A program made the position numbers and the translations under genes. From Sporomusa acidovorans (GTDB lineage: Bacteria; Bacillota; Negativicutes; Sporomusales; Sporomusaceae), in assembly GCF_900101845.1 (NCBI RefSeq), contig NZ_FNAM01000023.1, positions 1 through 64,000 of the forward strand: a DNA stretch of 64,000 nt. The letters are read 5' to 3'. Shown here one piece after another: positions 4,182 to 51,065 of the stretch; positions within the stretch are counted from its first letter, which is position 1; each line of letters begins with the position of its first letter. The notes beneath the pieces were generated by a model. That model was not told where the DNA came from. It saw only the letters and a list, made by a program, of their open reading frames with translations, and made no database searches.

Positions 4182-4309
4182 CTGTATTAAAGAAGCTTGC
4201 AGGCACAGGCGTGCGGTGTATTGACAACGCTCCACCACTAGCGTTTGACTTCCGCTTTTGCCAACACACCACCCGCCTGCAAAAATCTTTAGCACGTTAT
4301 ATATATATT
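4182..4309 (+). repeat. Structured intergenic repeat, copy A (upstream of terC)
   Basis: Member of a six-copy family in this window. Outer arms are TTAAAGAAG-TTGCAGGC and GCCTGCAAAAATCTTTA. An inner stem is ACGCT-loop-AGCGT with the conserved core CACTAGCGTTTGACTT, then CCGCTTTTGCCAACACACC. The copy ends 17 nt before the terC start and the SD lies just outside it. The right arm can be read as MPTHHPPAKIF, which would wrongly extend the downstream gene. Confidence 0.85.
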
Positions 4310-4326
4310 ATCCTGGGGGTGAATTC

Positions 4327-5007
4327 GTGGAGTGGACCATCACATTAATGAGTATTATAACTGTAAATTTGCTTTTAAGTGGTGACAATGCCTTGGTTAT
4401 TGCCTTAGCGAGCCGGAAGCTGCCGCCCAAGCAGCAAAAACAGGCAGTTTTATGGGGCGGGGCCGGGGCAATTGTATTAAGAATTATCCTAACCTTTGTC
4501 GCTGTTATCTTGTTGCAAATTCCTTTTCTGCAACTGCTTGGCAGCTTAGCACTGCTATGGATCGCCATAAAACTTTTGTCTAACGAAGAAAATAAACAGA
4601 AACTGGAAGCCAAGAAAAGCCTGGCAGGAGCGGTTAAGACCATCATTTTTGCCGATTTGATCATGAGCGTTGATAACGTAATTGCTATTGCCGGCGTCGC
4701 CAAAGGAAATATTACTCTCTTGATTGTCGGGTTGGGGATTAGCATTCCGATTATTATTTGGGGCAGTAACCTTATTCATATGCTGATGGAACGATGGCCC
4801 ATTATTATTACTATCGGTGCGGCCTTTTTAGGCTGGACTGCCGGCGATATGGCAACTTCCGACCAAAAAATTATGCTTTTGCTGGAGCCGTATCCTTGGA
4901 CACACTGGGCTGTGCCGGCAGCGTTCGCCGTCGTTGTCGTCGTCATTGGCTCAGCGCTTGCTAATCGCAAGCAGCCCGGGAAGCAGGAACCTCAGCGCAA
5001 CGGCTAG
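4327..5007 (+). CDS. TerC-family integral membrane protein (first copy)
   Basis: 226 residues with about seven membrane segments and the family signature NLLLSGDNALVIALA near residues 14-28, repeated in mirrored form as ADLIMSVDNVIAIAG. The buried acidic residues of these two motifs are the probable metal-binding site. TerC/YkoY proteins are known or proposed manganese exporters that also help metallate secreted proteins. I chose GTG 4327 because GGGGGTGA lies just before it and because the encoded MEWTITLMS aligns with MELLIALGS of the second TerC at 6940. Upstream in-frame codons come from the repeat. Unlike the second copy it has no Mn riboswitch; repeat copy A takes that place. Its end is 5 nt from a convergent remnant gene. 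Confidence 0.9.
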   Translation: MEWTITLMSIITVNLLLSGDNALVIALASRKLPPKQQKQAVLWGGAGAIVLRIILTFVAVILLQIPFLQLLGSLALLWIAIKLLSNEENKQKLEAKKSLAGAVKTIIFADLIMSVDNVIAIAGVAKGNITLLIVGLGISIPIIIWGSNLIHMLMERWPIIITIGAAFLGWTAGDMATSDQKIMLLLEPYPWTHWAVPAAFAVVVVVIGSALANRKQPGKQEPQRNG

Positions 5008-6478: not shown

Positions 6479-6609
6479 CTGTATATTCCGTTTTAAAGAA
6501 TATTGCAGGCGGGCGGCGTATTGGCGCGCAAGTCAAACGCTAGTGGTGAAGCGTTGTCAATACGCCGCCCGCCTGTGCCTGCAAACTTCTTTAATGCGGA
6601 ATATATATA
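6479..6609 (-). repeat. Structured intergenic repeat, copy B (upstream of the membrane hydrolase)
   Basis: On the minus strand it matches copies A and E: TATATATTCCGCATTAAAGAAG at the left, inner stem ACGCT/AGCGT, core CACTAGCGTTTGACTT. Its main stem is perfect over 18 bp (CAGGCGGGCGGCGTATTG with its complement at 6506-6523 and 6558-6575). Both arms differ from those of A and E at paired positions (GGCGGCGT against GGTGGTGT), so pairing is kept. Confidence 0.88.
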
Positions 6610-6939: not shown

Positions 6940-7635
6940 ATGGAACTATTGATAGCGTTAGGCAGTATTACGTTAATAAATCTAATACTGAGTGGCGATA
7001 ATGCTGTTGTCATAGCTCTGGCTAGTAGAAATTTGCCTCATGATCAGCGAAAAAAAGCCGTGCTATGGGGTAGTGCGGGAGCTGTGGTTCTAAGAATTCT
7101 GCTTACGATGATTGCCGCATTTTTGCTTAAGATTCCGTATGTGCAATTTTTGGGTGGGATCGCCCTCGTATATATTGCCGTAAATTTGCTTGGTGATGAA
7201 CACAAAGAAGTCGCCTGCGAAGGGGCCGAAAGTTTTTGGGAAGCAATTAAAATTATTATATTTGCTGACTTAATCATGAGTCTGGATAATGTCTTGGCCA
7301 TTGCCGGCGTTGCTAACGGACATATCGGCTTATTAATATTCGGACTGGCCTTAAGTGTGCCGTTGGTAGTATTCGGCAGTCAGATGCTAATGAAACTTAT
7401 GGATAGATACCCTATTATTATTTATTTAGGGGCAGCTATTCTAGCGTGGACGGCTGCTAAGATGATGGTAGCTGATGCGGTGCTGGGGGTGTGGCTTCAA
7501 CCTTATGCAGTTTTGCTGGAGATTGGTGTGACAGCGGCGGCTTTGCTTATTGGTTATTGGCGTAAAAAACAGGGGCTTGAACCTGTACGCAGAGAAAATA
7601 AAGCGGCCTCCGGCGAACACCACCACGAAGCCTAA
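6940..7635 (+). CDS. TerC-family manganese exporter (second copy)
   Basis: 231 residues, closely similar to the TerC at 4327. The motif NLILSGDNAVVIALA (near 14-28) and its mirror ADLIMSLDNVLAIAG carry the acidic residues thought to bind metal, and about seven hydrophobic helices are present. The tail is short, basic and histidine-containing (GEHHHEA). The start ATG follows GAGGGGG. The Mn riboswitch upstream argues that this copy exports manganese when the cell is overloaded. The tail histidines may bind metal, but that is a guess. The gene ends at a terminator and stands alone. Confidence 0.93.
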   Translation: MELLIALGSITLINLILSGDNAVVIALASRNLPHDQRKKAVLWGSAGAVVLRILLTMIAAFLLKIPYVQFLGGIALVYIAVNLLGDEHKEVACEGAESFWEAIKIIIFADLIMSLDNVLAIAGVANGHIGLLIFGLALSVPLVVFGSQMLMKLMDRYPIIIYLGAAILAWTAAKMMVADAVLGVWLQPYAVLLEIGVTAAALLIGYWRKKQGLEPVRRENKAASGEHHHEA

Positions 7636-7720: not shown

Positions 7721-7823
7721 ATATTATTTATTCTCATGATTCTGTTAATTATGTAAATTGTATAATTTAAACTTTTGGTATCACCCCATGCTCGTGGTAT
7801 GATATAATACAAAATTGTTACCT

Positions 7824-7943
7824 ATATGAAATCCAATAAAGATTTCATCTGACATGACAGGGTGTTAGTAAACGCCCCACACTGGCGCTTGACTTTCCCT
7901 ATACTAACACCTGCCTGTAAATCGTTATTGGATACTATATATT
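7824..7943 (+). repeat. Structured intergenic repeat, copy C (upstream of the hydrogenase-4 operon)
   Basis: A divergent copy with the same plan: outer arms ATCCAATAA / TTATTGGAT, main stem GGTGTTAGTA / TACTAACACC (perfect, 10 bp), inner stem CGCC/GGCG and core CACTGGCGCTTGACTT. The arm sequences differ from copies A, B, E and F, yet pairing is kept. It ends about 25 nt before the TTG start of hyfB; the SD GGAGG lies outside it. Confidence 0.8.
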
Positions 7944-13497: not shown

Positions 13498-14385
13498 ATG
13501 TCACTAGCTAAATTATCGTTAGAGGAATGGATGCAAACCGCCGCCGGGCAAGCGGTTTCGTTTGCCGACTTTTGCGTCGAATTTCAGAGTAAGCAGTTGG
13601 AACTGCCTCCCGATAAGGTAATTGCCCGCATGGCAGCAATGCTGGCGGTGATGGAAGAATCAATAACCACCGGGCTTAAGGGGCCTCGTTCCAAAGGTGG
13701 CTTAGTCGGCGGCGACGCTCAAAAGTTACAGAAATATCTGAGTGGCAAAAAGCGGAGCATATTGGGAAATGTTGTCGGCAAAGCGGTGATGTATTCACTG
13801 GCGGTAGGCGAAGCCAATGCTGCCATGGGGCGGATCGTCGCCGCTCCCACCGCCGGTTCGAGCGGTGTACTTCCGGCTGTTCTGTTTACTATGAAAGAAG
13901 AGTTGCATCTTTCTCAAAGTGAACTGGCCAAAGGACTGGTAGTGGCGGGTGCCATTGGCATGGTTATTGCATCCAGGGCATCGCTTGCCGGCGCTGCCGG
14001 CGGCTGCCAGGCCGAATGCGGTTCTGCCGGGGCTATGGCCGCAGGCGCCATGGTATCCTTATTGGGCGGGACACCGGCGCAAGTAGGACATGCTGTCGCC
14101 ATTACCATTAAAAATATGCTAGGCTTAGTGTGCGACCCGGTTGCCGGTTTAGTGGAAGTGCCTTGCGTTAAACGCAACGCCGGAGCAGTGGCGCAGGCTA
14201 TGGTTGCTGCCGAAATGGCTCTTGCCGGGATTGAAAGTGTAATCCCGCCGGATGAAGTAATTGACGCTATGGATGCGGTCGGCCAGTCAATGCATTGTTC
14301 CCTTAAAGAAACCGCCCAGGGCGGTTTGGCGGTAACACCCACTGCCTTGGCGTTGACTGAAAAAATATTTGGTCATACGATATGA
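13498..14385 (+). CDS. sdaAA: L-serine dehydratase, iron-sulfur-dependent, alpha subunit
   Basis: 295 residues, the usual length of the catalytic subunit. Cysteines in GGCQAECGSAGA and in LVCDPVAGLVEVPCVKRNA are placed to hold the [4Fe-4S] cluster that activates the serine hydroxyl. Glycine-rich PTAGSSGVLPAVLF is also typical. A clear AGGGGTGAGCAG precedes the ATG. The stop TGA directly abuts repeat copy D, which separates this gene from ridA. The link to ridA makes sense: RidA removes the reactive enamine/imine made by serine and threonine dehydratases, especially the PLP-dependent ones. Confidence 0.96.
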   Translation: MSLAKLSLEEWMQTAAGQAVSFADFCVEFQSKQLELPPDKVIARMAAMLAVMEESITTGLKGPRSKGGLVGGDAQKLQKYLSGKKRSILGNVVGKAVMYSLAVGEANAAMGRIVAAPTAGSSGVLPAVLFTMKEELHLSQSELAKGLVVAGAIGMVIASRASLAGAAGGCQAECGSAGAMAAGAMVSLLGGTPAQVGHAVAITIKNMLGLVCDPVAGLVEVPCVKRNAGAVAQAMVAAEMALAGIESVIPPDEVIDAMDAVGQSMHCSLKETAQGGLAVTPTALALTEKIFGHTI

Positions 14386-14482
14386 TCCTTCCGCCAGGGT
14401 GTTAGCAGCGTTCCGGCACTGGCGCGTGATCGCCGCTTTTACCAACACTCTGTCTGGAAATCTTTATTAGCTATTATATAAT
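14386..14482 (+). repeat. Structured intergenic repeat, copy D (between sdaAA and ridA)
   Basis: The most divergent copy. Main stem AGGGTGTTAG against CCAACACTCT pairs with wobbles, the core is CACTGGCGCGTGATCGCCGC, and the right end CTGGAAATCTTTATTAGC matches the family. The outer left arm is not recognisable. It begins right after the sdaAA stop and lies about 65 nt before the ridA start. Confidence 0.7.
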
Positions 14483-39048: not shown

Positions 39049-39148
39049 TGATTAGAGAGCTCAGCTAATAGCGCTAAACCCTGGAAGGTTCTGACTGATA
39101 GCTCATTTATGTCAAAAAATTCAGTTCTATATTTTGGTTGACTAGAAA

Positions 39149-39332: not shown

Positions 39333-39501
39333 GCTTTTCAGCCTCCCGGATTAACATCTATTCTTATTTGGATTATATGCTACTTGCCTTGCTGGTGCAA
39401 GGACGAAAAGGGCAATTAAGAAATATTTTTATTGCCAGGCACATTCGGCTCGTCCTTGCCATAAGATTTAAGCGACAGATTTTTCGGGGGTGTATGACGT
39501 A

Positions 39502-39933
39502 ATGACTCTTTCGTTTTTTACGGTTCTGGCAACGTCAATTATTAAAGGCATCACCCTGCTTGTTTCGTACATAGCCAATAATACATTTCCTCTGCCATTA
39601 TCAGAAAAAGATGAGCAAATCTATTTACAAAGGCTTAAAGAAGGGGATGAGGTTGCCCGTAATGTGTTAATTGAACGCAACCTTAGACTAGTGGCTCATA
39701 TTGTAAAGAAATTTGATAATACCGGTGAGGACGTGGATGATCTAATTTCCATCGGCACCATTGGTCTTATCAAGGCCATTAATACTTTTGATCCGGCTAA
39801 AAAAATTAGATTAGCTACCTATGCTGCCCGTTGCATTGAAAATGAAATTCTCATGCATTTAAGGAGCACCCGGCGTATTCGTACTGAAGTGAGTTTATAT
39901 GATCCAATTGGTGTCGACAAAGAAGGAAATGAA
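39502..39933 (+). CDS. sigK: Sporulation sigma factor K, N-terminal part (interrupted by skin element)
   Basis: 144 codons of pro-sigma-K. The hydrophobic pro-peptide [16 protein letters not shown] resembles the region cut by SpoIVFB. Region 2 is present ([46 protein letters not shown]). The reading frame runs on through [14 protein letters not shown], where sigma-K sequence stops at AATGAA; the inserted DNA then adds unrelated residues up to a stop at 40009-40011. Excision joins codon GAA directly to ATT at 43648, giving a protein of about 237 residues, the normal length. ATG 39502 follows GGGGGTG; a GTG 12 nt earlier is possible. This is the mother-cell late sigma factor. Confidence 0.95.
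39928..39933 (+). other. Left attachment core of the skin element
   Basis: AATGAA inside GGAAATGAATTTACC. The match to the right core continues as TTAC after one mismatch. The B. subtilis skin uses AATGA, as I recall. Confidence 0.82.
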
Positions 39934-39976
39934 TTTACCCTAACCCTTTATCTGTTTTATCCCTCAATTAGGCGAT

Positions 39977-41554
39977 TTACTGGGGCAATCGAGGGTAAAG
40001 TACCAACGTGAAATCATCGTCGCGTTGGTCTTTTTCTTTTCGGTAGGTGGCATACTCTAGCACGGATTTTAGTATTCGGTTTTTTGCAGCAGGATCTTTG
40101 GTCTTGGAAAATACCGACAACGATTTTTTGAATTTGGGGATAATATCTTTCCTGGCTTTTTCTCGCTTGGTTTCATTCTTGATCACTAATTTCATATCTG
40201 CTATTGCTTTTTCCGTTTCTGCAACCCGTTTAGATAATTTCTGTGAACGTTCAAGGTAAGTAGCTTCATCATATATTCGTCTTTCAAGCAACTCGGGAAG
40301 ACGATCTTTCTGTTGGCCTAGTGTTGCTAATTCCTTTTCGAGAGTATGTAATATTTTTTTATAGATGCTGATCGTGTTTTCTTTTTTATTTTGGGGCTGA
40401 TATTTGCTCCACTGATTTTGATACTCTTCAACCCATGCTTCCAAGCCATCAAGCAATTGCTTCTCTATATACTCAAAACGGCTGCTCTTATTTGAGCATT
40501 GCGGATTGTAGCATATGAGATGAGGATATTGTTGACGCTTATACGGACGGTATACCATAGAACTGCCGCAAATGTCACATTTAACCAGCCCTGCCAGCGG
40601 ATTAGTAATACCATTACCATGGTGATAGGGGACGTGATATTTTCCTTTTAGAATGGCCTGTGTTTTGGCAAAAAGTTCTTTGGATACAAGCGGTTCATGC
40701 TTTCCCTCGACATCAATCCATTCTTCCCGAGGACGTGTCCTGGTATCGCGTCTTTTGTCCGGGTCGGCTGATTTCTTGCTTTCTTTCTTTTTCCACTGCA
40801 GCCGGCCAATGTATACTTCATTTTTTATGATATTTAAGACCATGGAGGATGCCCAAGGCCTTCCACTGTACGTTTTCTTGCCCATACGGTTTAATTCTGC
40901 GGCAATCTTATGCGCTCCCATTCTGCCGTCCATAGAATCATTTGTATATAACTCAAAAATAAGCTTTACTACCGGGGCTTGTTCGGGGTGGGGGACTAAC
41001 ATTCTATCCCGTCCTTTTTTTTCAATTTGATAGCCGTATGGCGGTCTTGTGCCAATATAATTGCCGTCTTGCACTGAACGGATTCTGCCGCCCTGCAACC
41101 GCCGGGTAATGATTTTTAATTCTTTGCGCGCCATAAATGCCTCGAATTCGGTGTATTCTTCATCGAACTCATCATTAAGATCGTAAATTTTTCTTTGGGT
41201 TACAATGTAAGTACCTGAGTTTTTAAAAGTCTTTAGTATAAGGCCCTGGTCTTCCATATCACCACGGCCAAGACGGTCAACTTCCATACACCATACAGAT
41301 TTCCATTTACCCTCGCCGACTTCTTTTAAAAGCTGCATCATCTCCGGACGATGGATAACACTTTCACCGGATACAATTTCCTCAAATACTGTTGTTATCT
41401 TGACGTTATTTTCTTTTGCAAGTCTAAAAAGTGCTTTTTTATGTTTGGCTAGGGTTTCACCTTCGCCGCGTGCTTCGGCTTCCTGATCCTCGCGTGACTT
41501 GCGCAGATAAAAACAAGCCGGTTCTAAATCCTGTTGTAAGCGTTGTTTCTTCAT
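39977..41554 (-). CDS. Large serine recombinase (SpoIVCA-like) of the skin element
   Basis: 525 residues. The N-terminal resolvase domain has the catalytic serine in [11 protein letters not shown] (S20) and [15 protein letters not shown]. The recombinase domain follows, then a zinc ribbon ([12 protein letters not shown]...CYNPQCSN). A coiled-coil stretch near residues 390-470 ([17 protein letters not shown] and after) and a basic end complete the fold. It should cut at the AATGAA sites and join the two parts of sigK. It is read opposite to sigK and ends 44 nt from the left core, as in other skin elements. GAGGTGAGACC gives its ribosome site. Mother-cell promoter sequences were not clear to me. 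Confidence 0.95.
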
Positions 41555-41797
41555 GGTCTCACCTCTAAGGCGTAGTTATATAACAAAAATAGTAATCAAA
41601 GCGATAAAATATTCCTGATACGTTTTGTTTTAATGCTGCTTTGCGTTTCGTTCTTACAGTATTTAAGAGGTATTATAAAAAGTTCGATGCTAGGACAATT
41701 CAAATGTCAAAAAGGGATCATTATTACATTGATAGGTACTTCCGTTCAGATATATTTACGAAGAATTTAACATTATTATAGGGCAGTCCACGTTAAT

Positions 41798-41820
41798 CCC
41801 CGGCATATAAATTACCGGGG
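41798..41820 (+). promoter_or_regulatory. Hairpin covering the ribosome site of the 64-residue gene
   Basis: CCCCGG / CCGGGG with an 11-nt loop. The right arm contains most of the GGGGTGA Shine-Dalgarno site, so it could hold translation back. Confidence 0.5.
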
Positions 41821-41827
41821 TGATACT

Positions 41828-42022
41828 GTGGAATGCAAGTACGCGGCTACCTATCGTTTTCCTGGCAGAAAAGGTGTAGTTCATGTGGTAGCTCCACCGC
41901 CAATGTCTGAAGAAGAAAAAGAGAGAAGAGTCCGTATATACTATGAAGCTTGTTGGGATGCATGGAATTCCCTTTCTGTTGAGGAGCGACTAAGATTTAA
42001 TGCCGAATGCAAAGCCGAGTAA
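41828..42022 (+). CDS. Hypothetical protein in the skin element, 64 residues
   Basis: No family recognised. The protein is MECKYAATYRFPGRKGVVH followed by a proline stretch (VAPPPMSEEEKERRV) and a helical end (YYEACWDAWNSLSVEERLR). It is soluble and slightly acidic. The start is GTG just after GGGGTGATACT, which lies in a hairpin. It is read divergently from the recombinase gene, so both may share the 270-nt control region between them. Confidence 0.65.
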   Translation: MECKYAATYRFPGRKGVVHVVAPPPMSEEEKERRVRIYYEACWDAWNSLSVEERLRFNAECKAE

Positions 42023-42109
42023 AATCGGCTGCAATAAACAGGGACAAGCCGGGAAGTGACTACATGGAGATTCACAACATCCGCTTGTCCTGGATAAAAA
42101 AATAGACAA

Positions 42110-42132
42110 TAAAAAATCCCGACTAGCGGGAT
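42110..42132 (-). terminator. Terminator of the 48-residue gene
   Basis: ATCCCG / CGGGAT arms; on the minus strand the stem starts at the stop codon and ends in TTTTTTATTG. Confidence 0.75.
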
Positions 42133-42278
42133 TATGAAGGTAACCAAGCATCGTCTCCAACGTTTGGAGGTACGGACTCTTCTTTTTTGGGAACCTTGGG
42201 CGAGTCGGTTTCTTTAGCCTTTTTAGCTTCTTTTTGTCGTTGTATACTGCGAAATTGATCAAGAGTTCTACCGCCCAT
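42132..42278 (-). CDS. Small charged protein in the skin element, 48 residues
   Basis: The protein starts MGGRTLDQFRSIQRQKEAK and continues with lysine/glutamate repeats (KAKETDSPKVPKKEE) to an acidic end DDAWLPS. AAGGAGGATGAATC before the ATG is a perfect ribosome site and a terminator overlaps the stop, so it is a real gene although too short for automatic calls. It is probably disordered. No function is evident. Confidence 0.7.
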   Translation of the reverse strand: MGGRTLDQFRSIQRQKEAKKAKETDSPKVPKKEESVPPNVGDDAWLPS

Positions 42279-42459
42279 GATTCATCCTCCTTAGTATTTT
42301 TATGAGAATATACTTACCCAATATATGATATGCACGTAAGATATATATTATTCATAAATTTACAGGTAGAGGGACTTTTATGCAGATTGATTGGGTATGG
42401 GGTACGCTGGGTAAATCTTTGGCAAAAGTCTGGTGAACAAGTTGGATGCATTTTACTGG

Positions 42460-42948
42460 TTAAATTTTTTTGCTGAAATAAATACATCCCCTGCGGTAGA
42501 AAGTAACAAAAATTTTTGAAACTAGTAATGACAGCGTAAGTGTGGAAAAGGTAGCAAACCAGCTCCAGCCGCTGTACTTAATAAGGTTGGTATAGAGTTC
42601 AAGAGGATATTCTATTGCTGTAATCCCGGCACTGAACAGTAGCGCATGACCGATTATGCCGCCTAGACCCCGTGTGCGGGTAGTTTGGTTATACAAAATG
42701 CACAAAACCGGGAATGCCCATATCTCAAAAAGTATACTGGTTTCAAAATATTTTGGCAGTAGACGAACCGGATATTCTAAGAGCCTGAGACTATGAACTG
42801 TGGATCCTAAAATAAAATCTAGGGTACATTGAAAAAAGAAGACAGCAACCCAAATTCGGAAATATTGCCAGTCAATTACATAAATCACTAATAACAAAGT
42901 GATTATGAACGACAGTATCATAATAAGTTGGTCCCAATAAAGACTCAT
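42460..42948 (-). CDS. CBO0543-family membrane protein
   Basis: 162 residues, five hydrophobic helices. Conserved features I associate with the CBO0543 family of clostridia and bacilli are LEYPVRLLPKYFETSILFEIWAFP near the middle and AIEYPLELYTNLIKYSGWSW later. The function of the family is unknown; it is common in spore formers. It is the largest passenger gene of the skin element. If it is expressed from the chromosome it would be lost from the mother cell after excision but kept in the spore. The ribosome site is weak (GGAGAAATCTA). Confidence 0.75.
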   Translation of the reverse strand: MSLYWDQLIMILSFIITLLLVIYVIDWQYFRIWVAVFFFQCTLDFILGSTVHSLRLLEYPVRLLPKYFETSILFEIWAFPVLCILYNQTTRTRGLGGIIGHALLFSAGITAIEYPLELYTNLIKYSGWSWFATFSTLTLSLLVSKIFVTFYRRGCIYFSKKI

Positions 42949-43326
42949 TAGATTTCTCCATTAAATATCCATAAAAGCTCTTAGCTTTTTACTGATAAGA
43001 AGTAACTACCGGCCGGGGAGGGATAATTTTTAACTGGATTACAAGTCCTGTCCAAACCCAATGATCCAAACAATTATGAAACGCACAATATAAAACATCG
43101 TTAACCACTAAAATAGCATAGCTTGAAAATGTAATTTTAATACCAACGAAAAGGAGATATCATGACAGTAGCAGGCCTGCTAACAACACGCCGAATGACT
43201 GCGTGTAGTTGAATATGTTAAAAGCGGTAGGCCGGGATAGATGGCGTGATATTAATAACAGCCATTTAAACTATTTAAAGGAAATAATTTCCTTATGTCG
43301 AAATAACCAAAGAAGGAGTTGATGTA
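42949..43326. other. Gap within the skin element
   Basis: Nothing certain. AAGGAGATATC precedes an ATG at 43162 that opens a frame of only 16 codons (MTVAGLLTTRRMTACS); a one-base shift would extend it to VVEYVKSGRPG, so it may be the relic of a small gene. The rest is AT-rich without recognisable structure. Confidence 0.4.
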
Positions 43327-43488
43327 ATGAAATGCTTAATTTGTGATAAGGCTATGCCATTTGATTGTACGTGTTCTGATATGGGGAAACGAATTCAGCT
43401 TGTTAGAGATGCTAAGCAATTAATAGATAACGAGGAAACCTTTAAAACGTTTATCAAAGCTAAGCTAAATGTTGATTTGGAACAATAA
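43327..43488 (+). CDS. Small cysteine-rich protein in the skin element, 53 residues
   Basis: MKCLICDKAMPFDCTCSDMG at the start has CxxC and CxC, a likely zinc site, followed by a helical, lysine-rich tail (LVRDAKQLIDNEETFKTFIK). AAGGAGTTGATGTA before the ATG is a good ribosome site and a terminator follows. It resembles small zinc-finger proteins of phages and plasmids in size only. It is read in the same direction as sigK. Confidence 0.65.
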   Translation: MKCLICDKAMPFDCTCSDMGKRIQLVRDAKQLIDNEETFKTFIKAKLNVDLEQ

Positions 43489-43552
43489 CCTATGAATTGG
43501 GCCCTTGGCAGGTGAGAATTGGAAGGCCAACTGACCTTGAGGTAGGACGATA

Positions 43553-43583
43553 AACTCCTGGTGTGATACCGGGGGTTATTTTT
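43553..43583 (+). terminator. Terminator before the right end of the skin element
   Basis: AACTCCTGGT / ACCGGGGGTT arms (wobbles included) and a TATTTTTAT tail. It would stop skin transcripts from entering the second part of sigK. Confidence 0.75.
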
Positions 43584-43641
43584 ATATAAATACAATATTA
43601 TATGGAAGAAATTTATAAAATACAGATAAACACTAAGTGTT

Positions 43642-43647
43642 AATGAA
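43642..43647 (+). other. Right attachment core of the skin element
   Basis: AATGAA inside TGTTAATGAAATTACATT. Read in the sigK frame it gives N-E followed by ITLIDVLGT, the expected continuation. Confidence 0.82.
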
Positions 43648-43929
43648 ATTACATTGATAGACGTATTGGGAACGGCGCCGGATGTTGTGGGGGAGGCCGT
43701 AGAAAGTTTGTGTGAACAGGAACGGTTAAATCGGGAAATTCACCGGCTGACTGCCAGGGAAAAATGGGTACTAGAAATGCGCTTCGGACTGCCTGACGGC
43801 AGTCGCAAAACCCAGCGTGATATTGCCAAAATACTAGGGATTTCACGAAGTTACGTTAGTAGAATAGAAAAACATGCGATTACTAAGTTGGGAAAGACAT
43901 TATCTGCGGGTGACACTCCCCATAAGTAG
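43642..43929 (+). CDS. sigK: Sporulation sigma factor K, C-terminal part
   Basis: This frame lacks a start and ribosome site of its own. It encodes ITLIDVLGTAPD followed by sigma region 4 (LTAREKWVLEMRFGL, TQRDIAKILGISRSYVSRIEK), which binds the -35 box. It is continuous with the first part only after the 3714-bp element is removed. The protein ends KTLSAGDTPHK. In B. subtilis the equivalent fragment was named spoIIIC. In cells with the element present no working sigma-K can be made. Confidence 0.95.
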   Translation, partial: NEITLIDVLGTAPDVVGEAVESLCEQERLNREIHRLTAREKWVLEMRFGLPDGSRKTQRDIAKILGISRSYVSRIEKHAITKLGKTLSAGDTPHK

Positions 43930-49580: not shown

Positions 49581-49713
49581 CTATGTATTCCGCATTAAAG
49601 AAGTTTGCCGACGCAGGCGGATGGTGTATGAAGAGCGCTCCACCACTAGCGTTTGACTTCCGCTTTTGCCAACACACCACCCGCCTGCAAAAATCTTCGC
49701 ACGTTGTATATAT
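49581..49713 (+). repeat. Structured intergenic repeat, copy E (between pilC and the pilin gene)
   Basis: Left end TATGTATTCCGCATTAAAGAAG, main stem GCAGGCGGATGGTGT / ACACCACCCGCCTGC with one mismatch, inner stem GCGCT/AGCGT, core CACTAGCGTTTGACTT, right end GCAAAAATCTTCGCACGTTG. It sits inside an operon, directly after a stop codon, and ends about 20 nt before the pilin start. Confidence 0.9.
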
Positions 49714-50214: not shown

Positions 50215-50961
50215 ATGCTCAGCTTACTTTTATTCTTAGCAGGGCTGATTGTCGGCAGTTTTTTAAATATATGTATTGACAGGATACCTCTAAAGCAGTC
50301 GTTGATACGGCCACGGTCATATTGTATGGCGTGTAAGGAGCCGTTGCCGGTTCAAGATATCCTACCGGTTATAAGTTTTTTGCTTTTACGGCGGCGATGC
50401 CGGTTTTGTGCTGCGTTACTCTCCTGGCGTTATATCGGAGTTGAATTGTTGACAGGCTGTTTATTTATATGGTGCTATTTTATTTTGGGGGTAACATTAG
50501 CTTGTAGTAAGGCGCTCATTCTTACATCCTTTCTTATTTGTATTACCTTTATTGATCTTCGACATCAGCTTATTCTGGATAAAATACTGGTGTGGTTTGC
50601 TGCCTTGGCTGTCATTAGCAACTTGTTCGAGCCTGTACTCTCCTGCGGGGACATGGTAAGTGCGGCCGTAGCCGGCGGGGGTATTTTCCTTGTAATTGCC
50701 GTTATTACCAGAGGGGGGATGGGAGGCGGTGATATTAAGTTTGTAGCTGCATTAGGGTTATGGCTGGGATTTAAGCTGACAATGCTTACCGTCTTTTTGG
50801 CTTTTCTCCTTGGTGGTTTAGGGGGATTATTGCTGATTATTGCCGGTCTAAAGAAACGGAAAGACTTTATTCCGTTTGGCCCCTTTATTGCCGCAAGTGC
50901 CTGGATTAGTTTGCTGTATGGGGAACAACTTATCATTTGGTATCTATATATTCCGCAGTAA
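50215..50961 (+). CDS. pilD: Prepilin peptidase / methyltransferase
   Basis: 248 residues, about seven membrane helices. The N-terminal part shows GSFLNICIDRIPLKQSL and two cysteine pairs (CMACKEPLP and CRFCAALLSW) of the methyltransferase/zinc domain. The catalytic aspartates lie in FIDLRHQLILD and GMGGGDIKF. It cuts the leader of prepilins and methylates the new N-terminus. ATG 50215 follows CGAGGGAGAAGCAC. The last residues (YLYIPQ and stop) are encoded by the left arm of repeat copy F, so the repeat has set the C-terminus. Confidence 0.95.
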   Translation: MLSLLLFLAGLIVGSFLNICIDRIPLKQSLIRPRSYCMACKEPLPVQDILPVISFLLLRRRCRFCAALLSWRYIGVELLTGCLFIWCYFILGVTLACSKALILTSFLICITFIDLRHQLILDKILVWFAALAVISNLFEPVLSCGDMVSAAVAGGGIFLVIAVITRGGMGGGDIKFVAALGLWLGFKLTMLTVFLAFLLGGLGGLLLIIAGLKKRKDFIPFGPFIAASAWISLLYGEQLIIWYLYIPQ

Positions 50962-51065
50962 AGAATTTGCAGACTCAGGTAGGTGGTGCATGAAGAGCGC
51001 TCCACCGCTGGCGCTTGACTTCCGCTTTTGCCAACACACCACTCGCCTGCAAAAATTTTTACTAC
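50943..51065 (+). repeat. Structured intergenic repeat, copy F (between pilD and the next pseudopilin gene)
   Basis: Left end CTATATATTCCGCAGTAAAGAA overlaps the last codons of pilD. Main stem AGGTGGTG / CACCACTC, inner stem GCGCT/GGCGC, core CGCTGGCGCTTGACTT, then CCGCTTTTGCCAACACACC. Compared with copy E both sides of the inner stem have changed while pairing is retained. Confidence 0.88.

Follow-up and report, generated by a model that had tools for sequence, protein, structure and literature searches.

What are the short, foldable sequences that recur between the genes of Sporomusa acidovorans, and what keeps their arms complementary when the letters of the arms differ from copy to copy? 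The question is raised by the window analysed here, i.e. the whole stretch of 64,000 nucleotides, in which a sequence-only reading had pointed to six structured repeats. Taken as a whole, the explanation that we consider probable, if well short of certain, is that they are mobile, non-autonomous repeats that carry a conserved hairpin signal.

The copies in the window

The six repeats share outer arms, a stem and a core, as proposed, and are all present near the places originally assigned to them, with the amendments that the core of the copy at 6479 lies on the minus strand and that three copies each lack one recognisable end. They split into two types, A (copies A, B, E and F, at 4182, 6479, 49581 and 50943) and C (copies C and D, at 7824 and 14386). 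The hairpin with its core was delimited by a covariance model of arms and core. Copy A (4182–4305, plus strand; hairpin 4210–4275) has a degenerate left end, no longer recognisable, and the right end CGTTATATATA at 4295–4305. Copy B (6479–6609, core on the minus strand; hairpin 6510–6571) has been palindromised, its two ends being both of the left (TTCCG) type and its arms pairing perfectly. Copy C (7823–7943, plus strand; hairpin 7854–7918) is bounded by TATATGAAATCC (7823–7834) and GGATACTATATA (7930–7941), while copy D (14386–14482, plus strand; hairpin 14391–14456), a degenerate member of the C type that has lost its left end, starts directly past the stop of an open reading frame ending at 14385. 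Copy E (49581–49713, plus strand; hairpin 49618–49683) runs from TATGTATTCC (49582–49591) to CGTTGTATATA (49702–49712) and has no counterpart between the corresponding genes of other Sporomusa genomes. In copy F (50943–51065, plus strand; hairpin 50980–51045) the left end TATATATTCC is found at 50945–50954 and the right end is degenerate beyond recognition. The model, built from 20 sequences, gives exactly six matches in the window, namely copies A to F, with E-values of 7.7e-17 to 6.8e-10, which are rough and also not independent, because copies C (7824) and D (14386) and close relatives of the other four are among the 20 sequences.

Two paralogous membrane-protein genes, predicted to be TerC-like, lie close behind copies A and B (4258–5007 and 6940–7635). 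Elsewhere in the window, a sporulation sigma factor gene (sigK-like, 39490–43929) appears to be split into an N-terminal part (39490–40011) and a C-terminal part (43654–43929), between which lies a minus-strand serine recombinase (39977–41554). The 9-bp word AATGAAATT occurs at both 39841 and 43642, and the arrangement resembles the sigK intervening (skin) element.

A miniature transposon of the IS630 family

Six is far too small a number for the family. In the genome of S. acidovorans (~6.0 Mb in 126 contigs) BLAST finds tens of copies of the A type and of the C type each, and 65 core-bearing copies were counted in the 1.15 Mb of sampled stretches. When all strands are counted, the termini amount to 164 against 5 in reversed-pattern controls (as listed, 121 against 2 for the A type and 43 against 1 for the C type). 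The same core occurs in S. sp. KB1, S. malonica, S. ovata and S. silvacetica. Many more copies are truncated or internally deleted, in the extreme case down to the two ends only (52 bp), and at one orthologous site the hairpin interior has been lost in S. sp. KB1 and kept in S. silvacetica and S. ovata.

Some further arrangements of repeats were met along the way. An A-type element is nested within a C-type element at CTAG (L118 1775–1946, i.e. G000:C54:55274–55445). In G011, a genome of a related genus, the hairpin copies of contig C1 at 35959, 61707 and 87455 and those at 39093, 64841 and 90589 show an exact spacing of 25,748 bp, which suggests a large tandem duplication near the chromosome start or an assembly artefact. 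A separate dispersed repeat of ~63–91 bp, partly tandem, is present in S. silvacetica, S. sp. KB1 and S. ovata (seen at the flank of L136 and on S. silvacetica contigs, e.g. G008:C73:40134–40778).

That the ~130-bp Sporomusa element is a non-autonomous miniature inverted-repeat transposon of the IS630 family (Tc1/mariner) can be regarded as close to settled as far as its mobility is concerned. The element is short and non-coding, and its terminal inverted repeats are CTATATA...TATATAG and TATATRRWATCCAATAAAGAT. Aligned copies have sharp ends, CTATATAttccgc-attaaagaa ... aaatctttagcacgttgTATATAG in the A type, where left and right ends differ consistently, and TATATgaaATCCAATAAAGAT ... ATCTTTATTGGATactATATA in the C type. 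At the left, C is the outermost base in 29 of 41 copies, and at the right G is so in 26 of 41, the two sides varying without apparent association; a CTAG target of which the TA alone is duplicated would give this pattern. Insertion in C-TA-G with duplication of the TA is visible base by base where a filled site of S. ovata (L064), TTACTC-TA-TATATTCC...GTTGTA-TA-GTAGAAAA, is set beside the empty site of S. silvacetica (L202), TTACTCTAGTAGAAAA, the flanks being 96–100% identical; with shorter flanks, ACTC-TA-TATATTCC...GTTGTA-TA-GTAG corresponds to ACTCTAGTAG. A second pair of sites (L131/L210) also fits C-TA-G and another (L085/L203) fits bar a one-base indel, and the empty sites L202 and L210 both read CTAG. 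It was the comparison of closer species that gave the duplication; in distant Sporomusa species the absence of the element is visible and the TA duplication is not. Both TA duplication and a preference for CTAG are established for IS630, as indicated by PMC2170065 and by the titles of Tenzen & Ohtsubo cited there.

The only match to DDE_3 (IS630 transposase) in the S. acidovorans genome, at C52:20885 (L147), contains one stop and shares 71% identity over 109 aa with intact transposases of the genome G009; it lies 530 bp from an independently found A-type terminus. The autonomous element of this genome is, thus, decayed, one of its ends being of the A type with 1 mismatch and the other degenerate, with 5 mismatches. 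It was located by the DDE_3 search after the search for terminus pairs had missed it, the loci with isolated termini having given only short or one-ended copies and no pair of A-type ends at the length of an insertion sequence. In G009 three identical IS630 copies have TATATANAATCTANTAAAGATTTACA at their termini, and in two of these the base beyond the left end is C; IS630 remnants in G021 and G007 have C-type and A-type-like termini, respectively. On the strength of these shared ends, the copies would have been moved by an IS630 transposase.

A conserved loop on a paired stem

Among A-type copies the core departs least from the consensus (4.3%), followed by the right arm (6.2%) and by the left arm and both ends (about 12–13%). 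The core is the best-kept part of the element, which is not what one would expect of a neutral interior.

The compensatory changes that had been noticed between the arms of the six copies are real. Pairing of the arms, examined in 46 A-type copies, amounts to 0.891 in cis and drops to 0.837 ± 0.006 when arms of different copies are combined; none of 2000 shuffles reached the cis value. An independently aligned set of 20 sequences from across families has two-sided changes in 15 of 24 pairs and a covariation of 0.308 against 0.133. Among 67 matches, nearly all from other genera, covariation is 0.810, against 0.165 after shuffling and at most 0.158 with slid partners, and all 16 outer pairs have changed on both sides; this last alignment was fitted to the model and so leans to structure, and the covariation is upheld because the 20-sequence set and the comparison of A-type arms in cis and in trans agree with it. 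The stems are, therefore, supported by covariation, and the selection on folding that had been proposed from the six copies has good support, chiefly from the class-wide data, in which stems have become all but unrecognisable and have stayed paired, and the loop has hardly changed. As far as such patterns tell, selection would act on the stem for its pairing and on the loop for its sequence.

The hairpin across the Negativicutes

The sequence-only reading had proposed a search for further copies, in this genome and in other Negativicutes, and both yielded them. The model of arms and core matches 31 of 380 Negativicutes genomes, from 16 genera and about a dozen families, with E-values outside the family of Sporomusa down to 1e-13, these counts being lower bounds, as genomes were sampled and up to 13 candidates were scored in each. 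The common plan is a loop of ~32 nt that approximates ACGCTYCGMCRYTRNCRCTTRACCTMCGCTTA and stands on a stem of mostly 16–23 bp (~20 bp). The stem sequence varies between genomes, and in G033 it differs among all four copies; a loop position carries on average 1.52 bits of information, an arm position 0.43. An origin of the G033 stems from inverted target duplication was considered and set aside, the inner stem bases being common to the copies.

Outside the family, inspection of up to 45 bp around the hairpins found no IS630-type TATATA...TAAAGA ends, and mobility there rests on dispersed, near-identical copies, because neither terminal repeats nor a target duplication were identified. The genome of S. 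acidovorans itself contains at least two class-type hairpins without transposon ends (L269 10439–10504 and L308 3733–3798), each with a TATAAGTTT-like motif. Since they lack IS630 ends and have flanking sequence in common, this genome harbours two hairpin lineages. The hairpin is, accordingly, much older and wider in its distribution than the Sporomusa transposon.

A strict loop pattern had no match in IMG/VR, and the loop pattern met only a 21-base chance match in plasmids; over genome contigs a pattern that was too strict matched Sporomusa only. With Rfam 15, the hairpins of the window and of the class-wide loci gave no match at gathering scores, and permissive thresholds returned only chance sub-threshold matches, mostly to eukaryotic families. 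The original remark that the repeats were not recognised as a known class, thus, no longer applies to the whole unit, which is an IS630-family miniature element with TA duplication, and still applies to the inner hairpin. A fixed loop on a free stem, distributed class-wide, has no counterpart in Rfam, and no description of it was found in the open-access papers searched. More tentatively, and with somewhat more doubt than confidence, it may be described as a new class-wide nucleic-acid signal of the Negativicutes, consisting of a fixed 32-nt loop on a free 20-bp stem, recognised on one strand by a putative host factor, located downstream of transcription units (among them rRNA operons) along both transcription and replication, dispersed, and captured in one family by an IS630 miniature transposon.

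Orientation and genomic place

In the S. acidovorans genome the core lies on the leading strand in 53 copies and on the lagging strand in 10 (84%). Where the flanking genes are in tandem and the GC skew is clear, it lies on the strand of the genes in 37 cases and on the opposite strand in 4, and between tandem genes it is also mostly in sense in S. sp. KB1 (12:0) and G004 (8:3). In such tandem contexts orientation relative to genes and orientation relative to replication are almost fully confounded. Throughout, gene neighbours were taken from a simple ORF caller, and skew was computed on 10–20-kb stretches in the S. acidovorans genome and on 3-kb stretches elsewhere.

A transcription-end signal, be it a terminator, a Rho-related element or an RNA that stabilises 3′ ends, would be found in sense behind genes and rRNA operons, and a good part of the class-wide picture is of this kind. 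In a set drawn mostly from other families, to which the Sporomusaceae contribute three loci of G009 and two of G003, 37 of 48 hairpins have their upstream gene in sense (37:11), and convergent sites outnumber divergent ones by 17:4. Hairpins are found 58–366 bp behind a 5S rRNA gene, always in sense, in G031, G129, G015, G044 and G003, and they may stand in series behind one rRNA operon, as do three in G044 and two in G015 (L393 317–720, L433 452–675). A number of hairpins outside the family follow an intrinsic terminator; where a terminator exists, however, the hairpin lies behind it, and inspection of the printed sequences found no T-run directly after the stem, i.e. no U-tract. Furthermore, Sporomusa copies are frequently found a short distance upstream of genes, and among them divergent sites are roughly as numerous as convergent ones. 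One-sided pair changes are more often A.C than G.T (43:16 in a tally of the A-type copies, 60:31 in the class-wide set), which does not favour a sense RNA with its wobble pairs; the sign of this excess is mixed between genomes and, therefore, no strand was assigned from wobble pairs. Folding energy was rejected as the cause of the bias, the antisense strand being the stabler in 63 of 64 A-type copies and the picture unclear in the C and G011 types. On balance, a transcription-end signal appears to be a rather unlikely account of the whole.

Replication could impose the same orientation if the hairpin were exposed on the lagging-strand template and bound there, in the manner of a leading-strand-oriented motif or of a single-strand initiation site. 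At convergent or divergent gene pairs of the S. acidovorans genome the core follows the GC skew 17:5 (P=0.017, on the assumption of independent insertions, although copies within a genome are related), and in other families the orientation follows the local skew 34:7. Genes, however, follow replication too, the gene-neutral test involves small numbers, and the copies are not known to have an even spacing or placement along the chromosome, so that a replication signal as the sole explanation is unlikely.

How the bias arises may be glimpsed from G011, which has at least 40 C-type copies that are nearly identical, hence young, and are oriented 10:13 between tandem genes (an all-plus run among G011 copies was an artefact of the candidates scored, the fuller list being mixed). 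Setting young, unbiased copies against older, biased ones, a comparison between different genera, the simplest reading would be that insertion is neutral to orientation and that copies lying the wrong way round disappear afterwards; an insertion bias particular to the lineage is possible instead.

Parasite, small RNA or host signal

The young unbiased copies would also be at home in a purely selfish IS630 miniature element without host function, whose core is needed for transposition and whose pairing results from templated correction. The latter predicts copies such as copy B, with ends of the same type and perfectly matched arms, and the deletion of internal hairpins down to 52 bp, one of them seen directly at an orthologous site, is likewise in favour of this reading. 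Part of the arm pairing may be due to templated correction of the palindrome, of which copy B (6479) is a good example. Yet the IS630 elements examined lack the core, a 9-base chance match aside, so that the transposase need not see it; the hairpin occurs without IS630 ends in many other families and in the S. acidovorans genome itself; and the consistent differences between left and right A-type ends indicate that correction is not general. Templated correction alone is insufficient, because it leaves the loop, these end differences and the orientation unexplained, and the purely selfish reading is improbable. A family of small RNAs in which each class-type copy has its own promoter (the TATAAGTTT-like motif upstream, which recurs in several families and in the S. 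acidovorans genome), the CCTCC-containing loop of the hairpin RNA pairing with mRNAs, is very unlikely, since neither a −35 box nor a terminator recurs consistently, the motif is missing from the Sporomusa transposon copies, and tens to more than 100 copies would be unusual for a small RNA.

The reading preferred here is that of mobile repeats carrying a conserved hairpin signal. Without IS630-type ends the hairpin is dispersed across the Negativicutes; in Sporomusa and a further two genera of the family it lies between IS630-type terminal inverted repeats, and the unit would be cut and pasted by an IS630 transposase (Tc1/mariner, DDE) into TA, with C-TA-G preferred. The ~20-bp stem, nearly free in sequence, displays the ~32-nt, nearly fixed loop, and would be kept by selection for pairing, in some copies aided by templated correction. 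A host protein would bind the loop in single-stranded form, be it in sense RNA 3′ of transcription units or on the exposed lagging-strand template; its most likely function is that of a protein-binding RNA or single-stranded-DNA hairpin. Insertion would occur either way round, with copies in the wrong orientation being lost later.

Bacterial miniature elements are usually read as parasites with an unimportant interior. In the present case no part is better conserved than the interior, which is common to families with differing ends and stems and has one orientation relative to transcription and replication. A conserved, shared and oriented interior, therefore, leads to two testable questions, namely what it is that binds a fixed loop irrespective of its stem, and whether the host keeps or purges mobile hairpins according to their orientation. 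With the covariance model and the loop consensus, the family can be followed in genomes and transcriptomes at once.

Comparison with known systems

REP sequences are shorter and have a conserved tetranucleotide beside the stem, whereas in the Sporomusa hairpin it is the loop that is conserved, and its mobility is of the DDE type. High-copy extragenic palindromes are, nevertheless, a trait that REP/BIME with their RAYT transposases (PMC2817692) share with the Sporomusa element. ERIC and Correia/NEMIS, as described in PMC2229807 and PMC3049150, are similarly intergenic, imperfect palindromes of about 100–160 bp, ERIC affecting mRNA in an orientation-dependent manner and NEMIS RNA being a target of RNase III; they differ in their ends and hosts, and loop-specific conservation on free stems does not figure in these descriptions.

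Among structured nucleic acids, the integron attC sites and the attC-like OTH-22-1 motif, according to the account in PMC8632094, resemble the hairpin in being structured DNA of variable sequence and conserved fold, but what defines attC are the core sites RYYYAAC/GTTRRRY at the ends of the stem, and none of these was seen by eye in the hairpin stems. The PBC-28-3 motif is described in PMC8632094 in words similar to those that fit the hairpin, the comparison being one of descriptions only; it differs in that its 21 examples are reported there to precede ahpC-like genes, adjoining the start codon.

The transposon side has closer parallels. TA duplication is a feature of ISY100 (PMC2170065) and, together with the 5′-CTAG-3′ target preference, of the Shigella IS630, going by the title of Tenzen & Ohtsubo 1991 in PMC2170065, both elements being autonomous, unlike the Sporomusa copies, which encode nothing. 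The repeat unit of pneumococcus, RUP, of 107 bp, has been proposed to be mobilised by IS630-Spn1 (PMC2229807, PMC3049150). From these accounts, RUP and the Sporomusa element have in common that they are short, non-coding and intergenic, with IS630-type ends, a TA target and about a hundred copies, and RUP, too, has a folded transcript and a leading-strand excess. The latter is given as 60.9% (PMC3049150), against the 84% of the Sporomusa hairpin, the pneumococcal RUP, BOX and SPRITE repeats being found on the leading strand in only 61–63% of cases by the same account (PMC3049150). A fixed loop on freely changing stems and a class-wide spread, absent from the description of RUP in these sources, set the Sporomusa hairpin apart; as a transposon, the Sporomusa element is closest to RUP.
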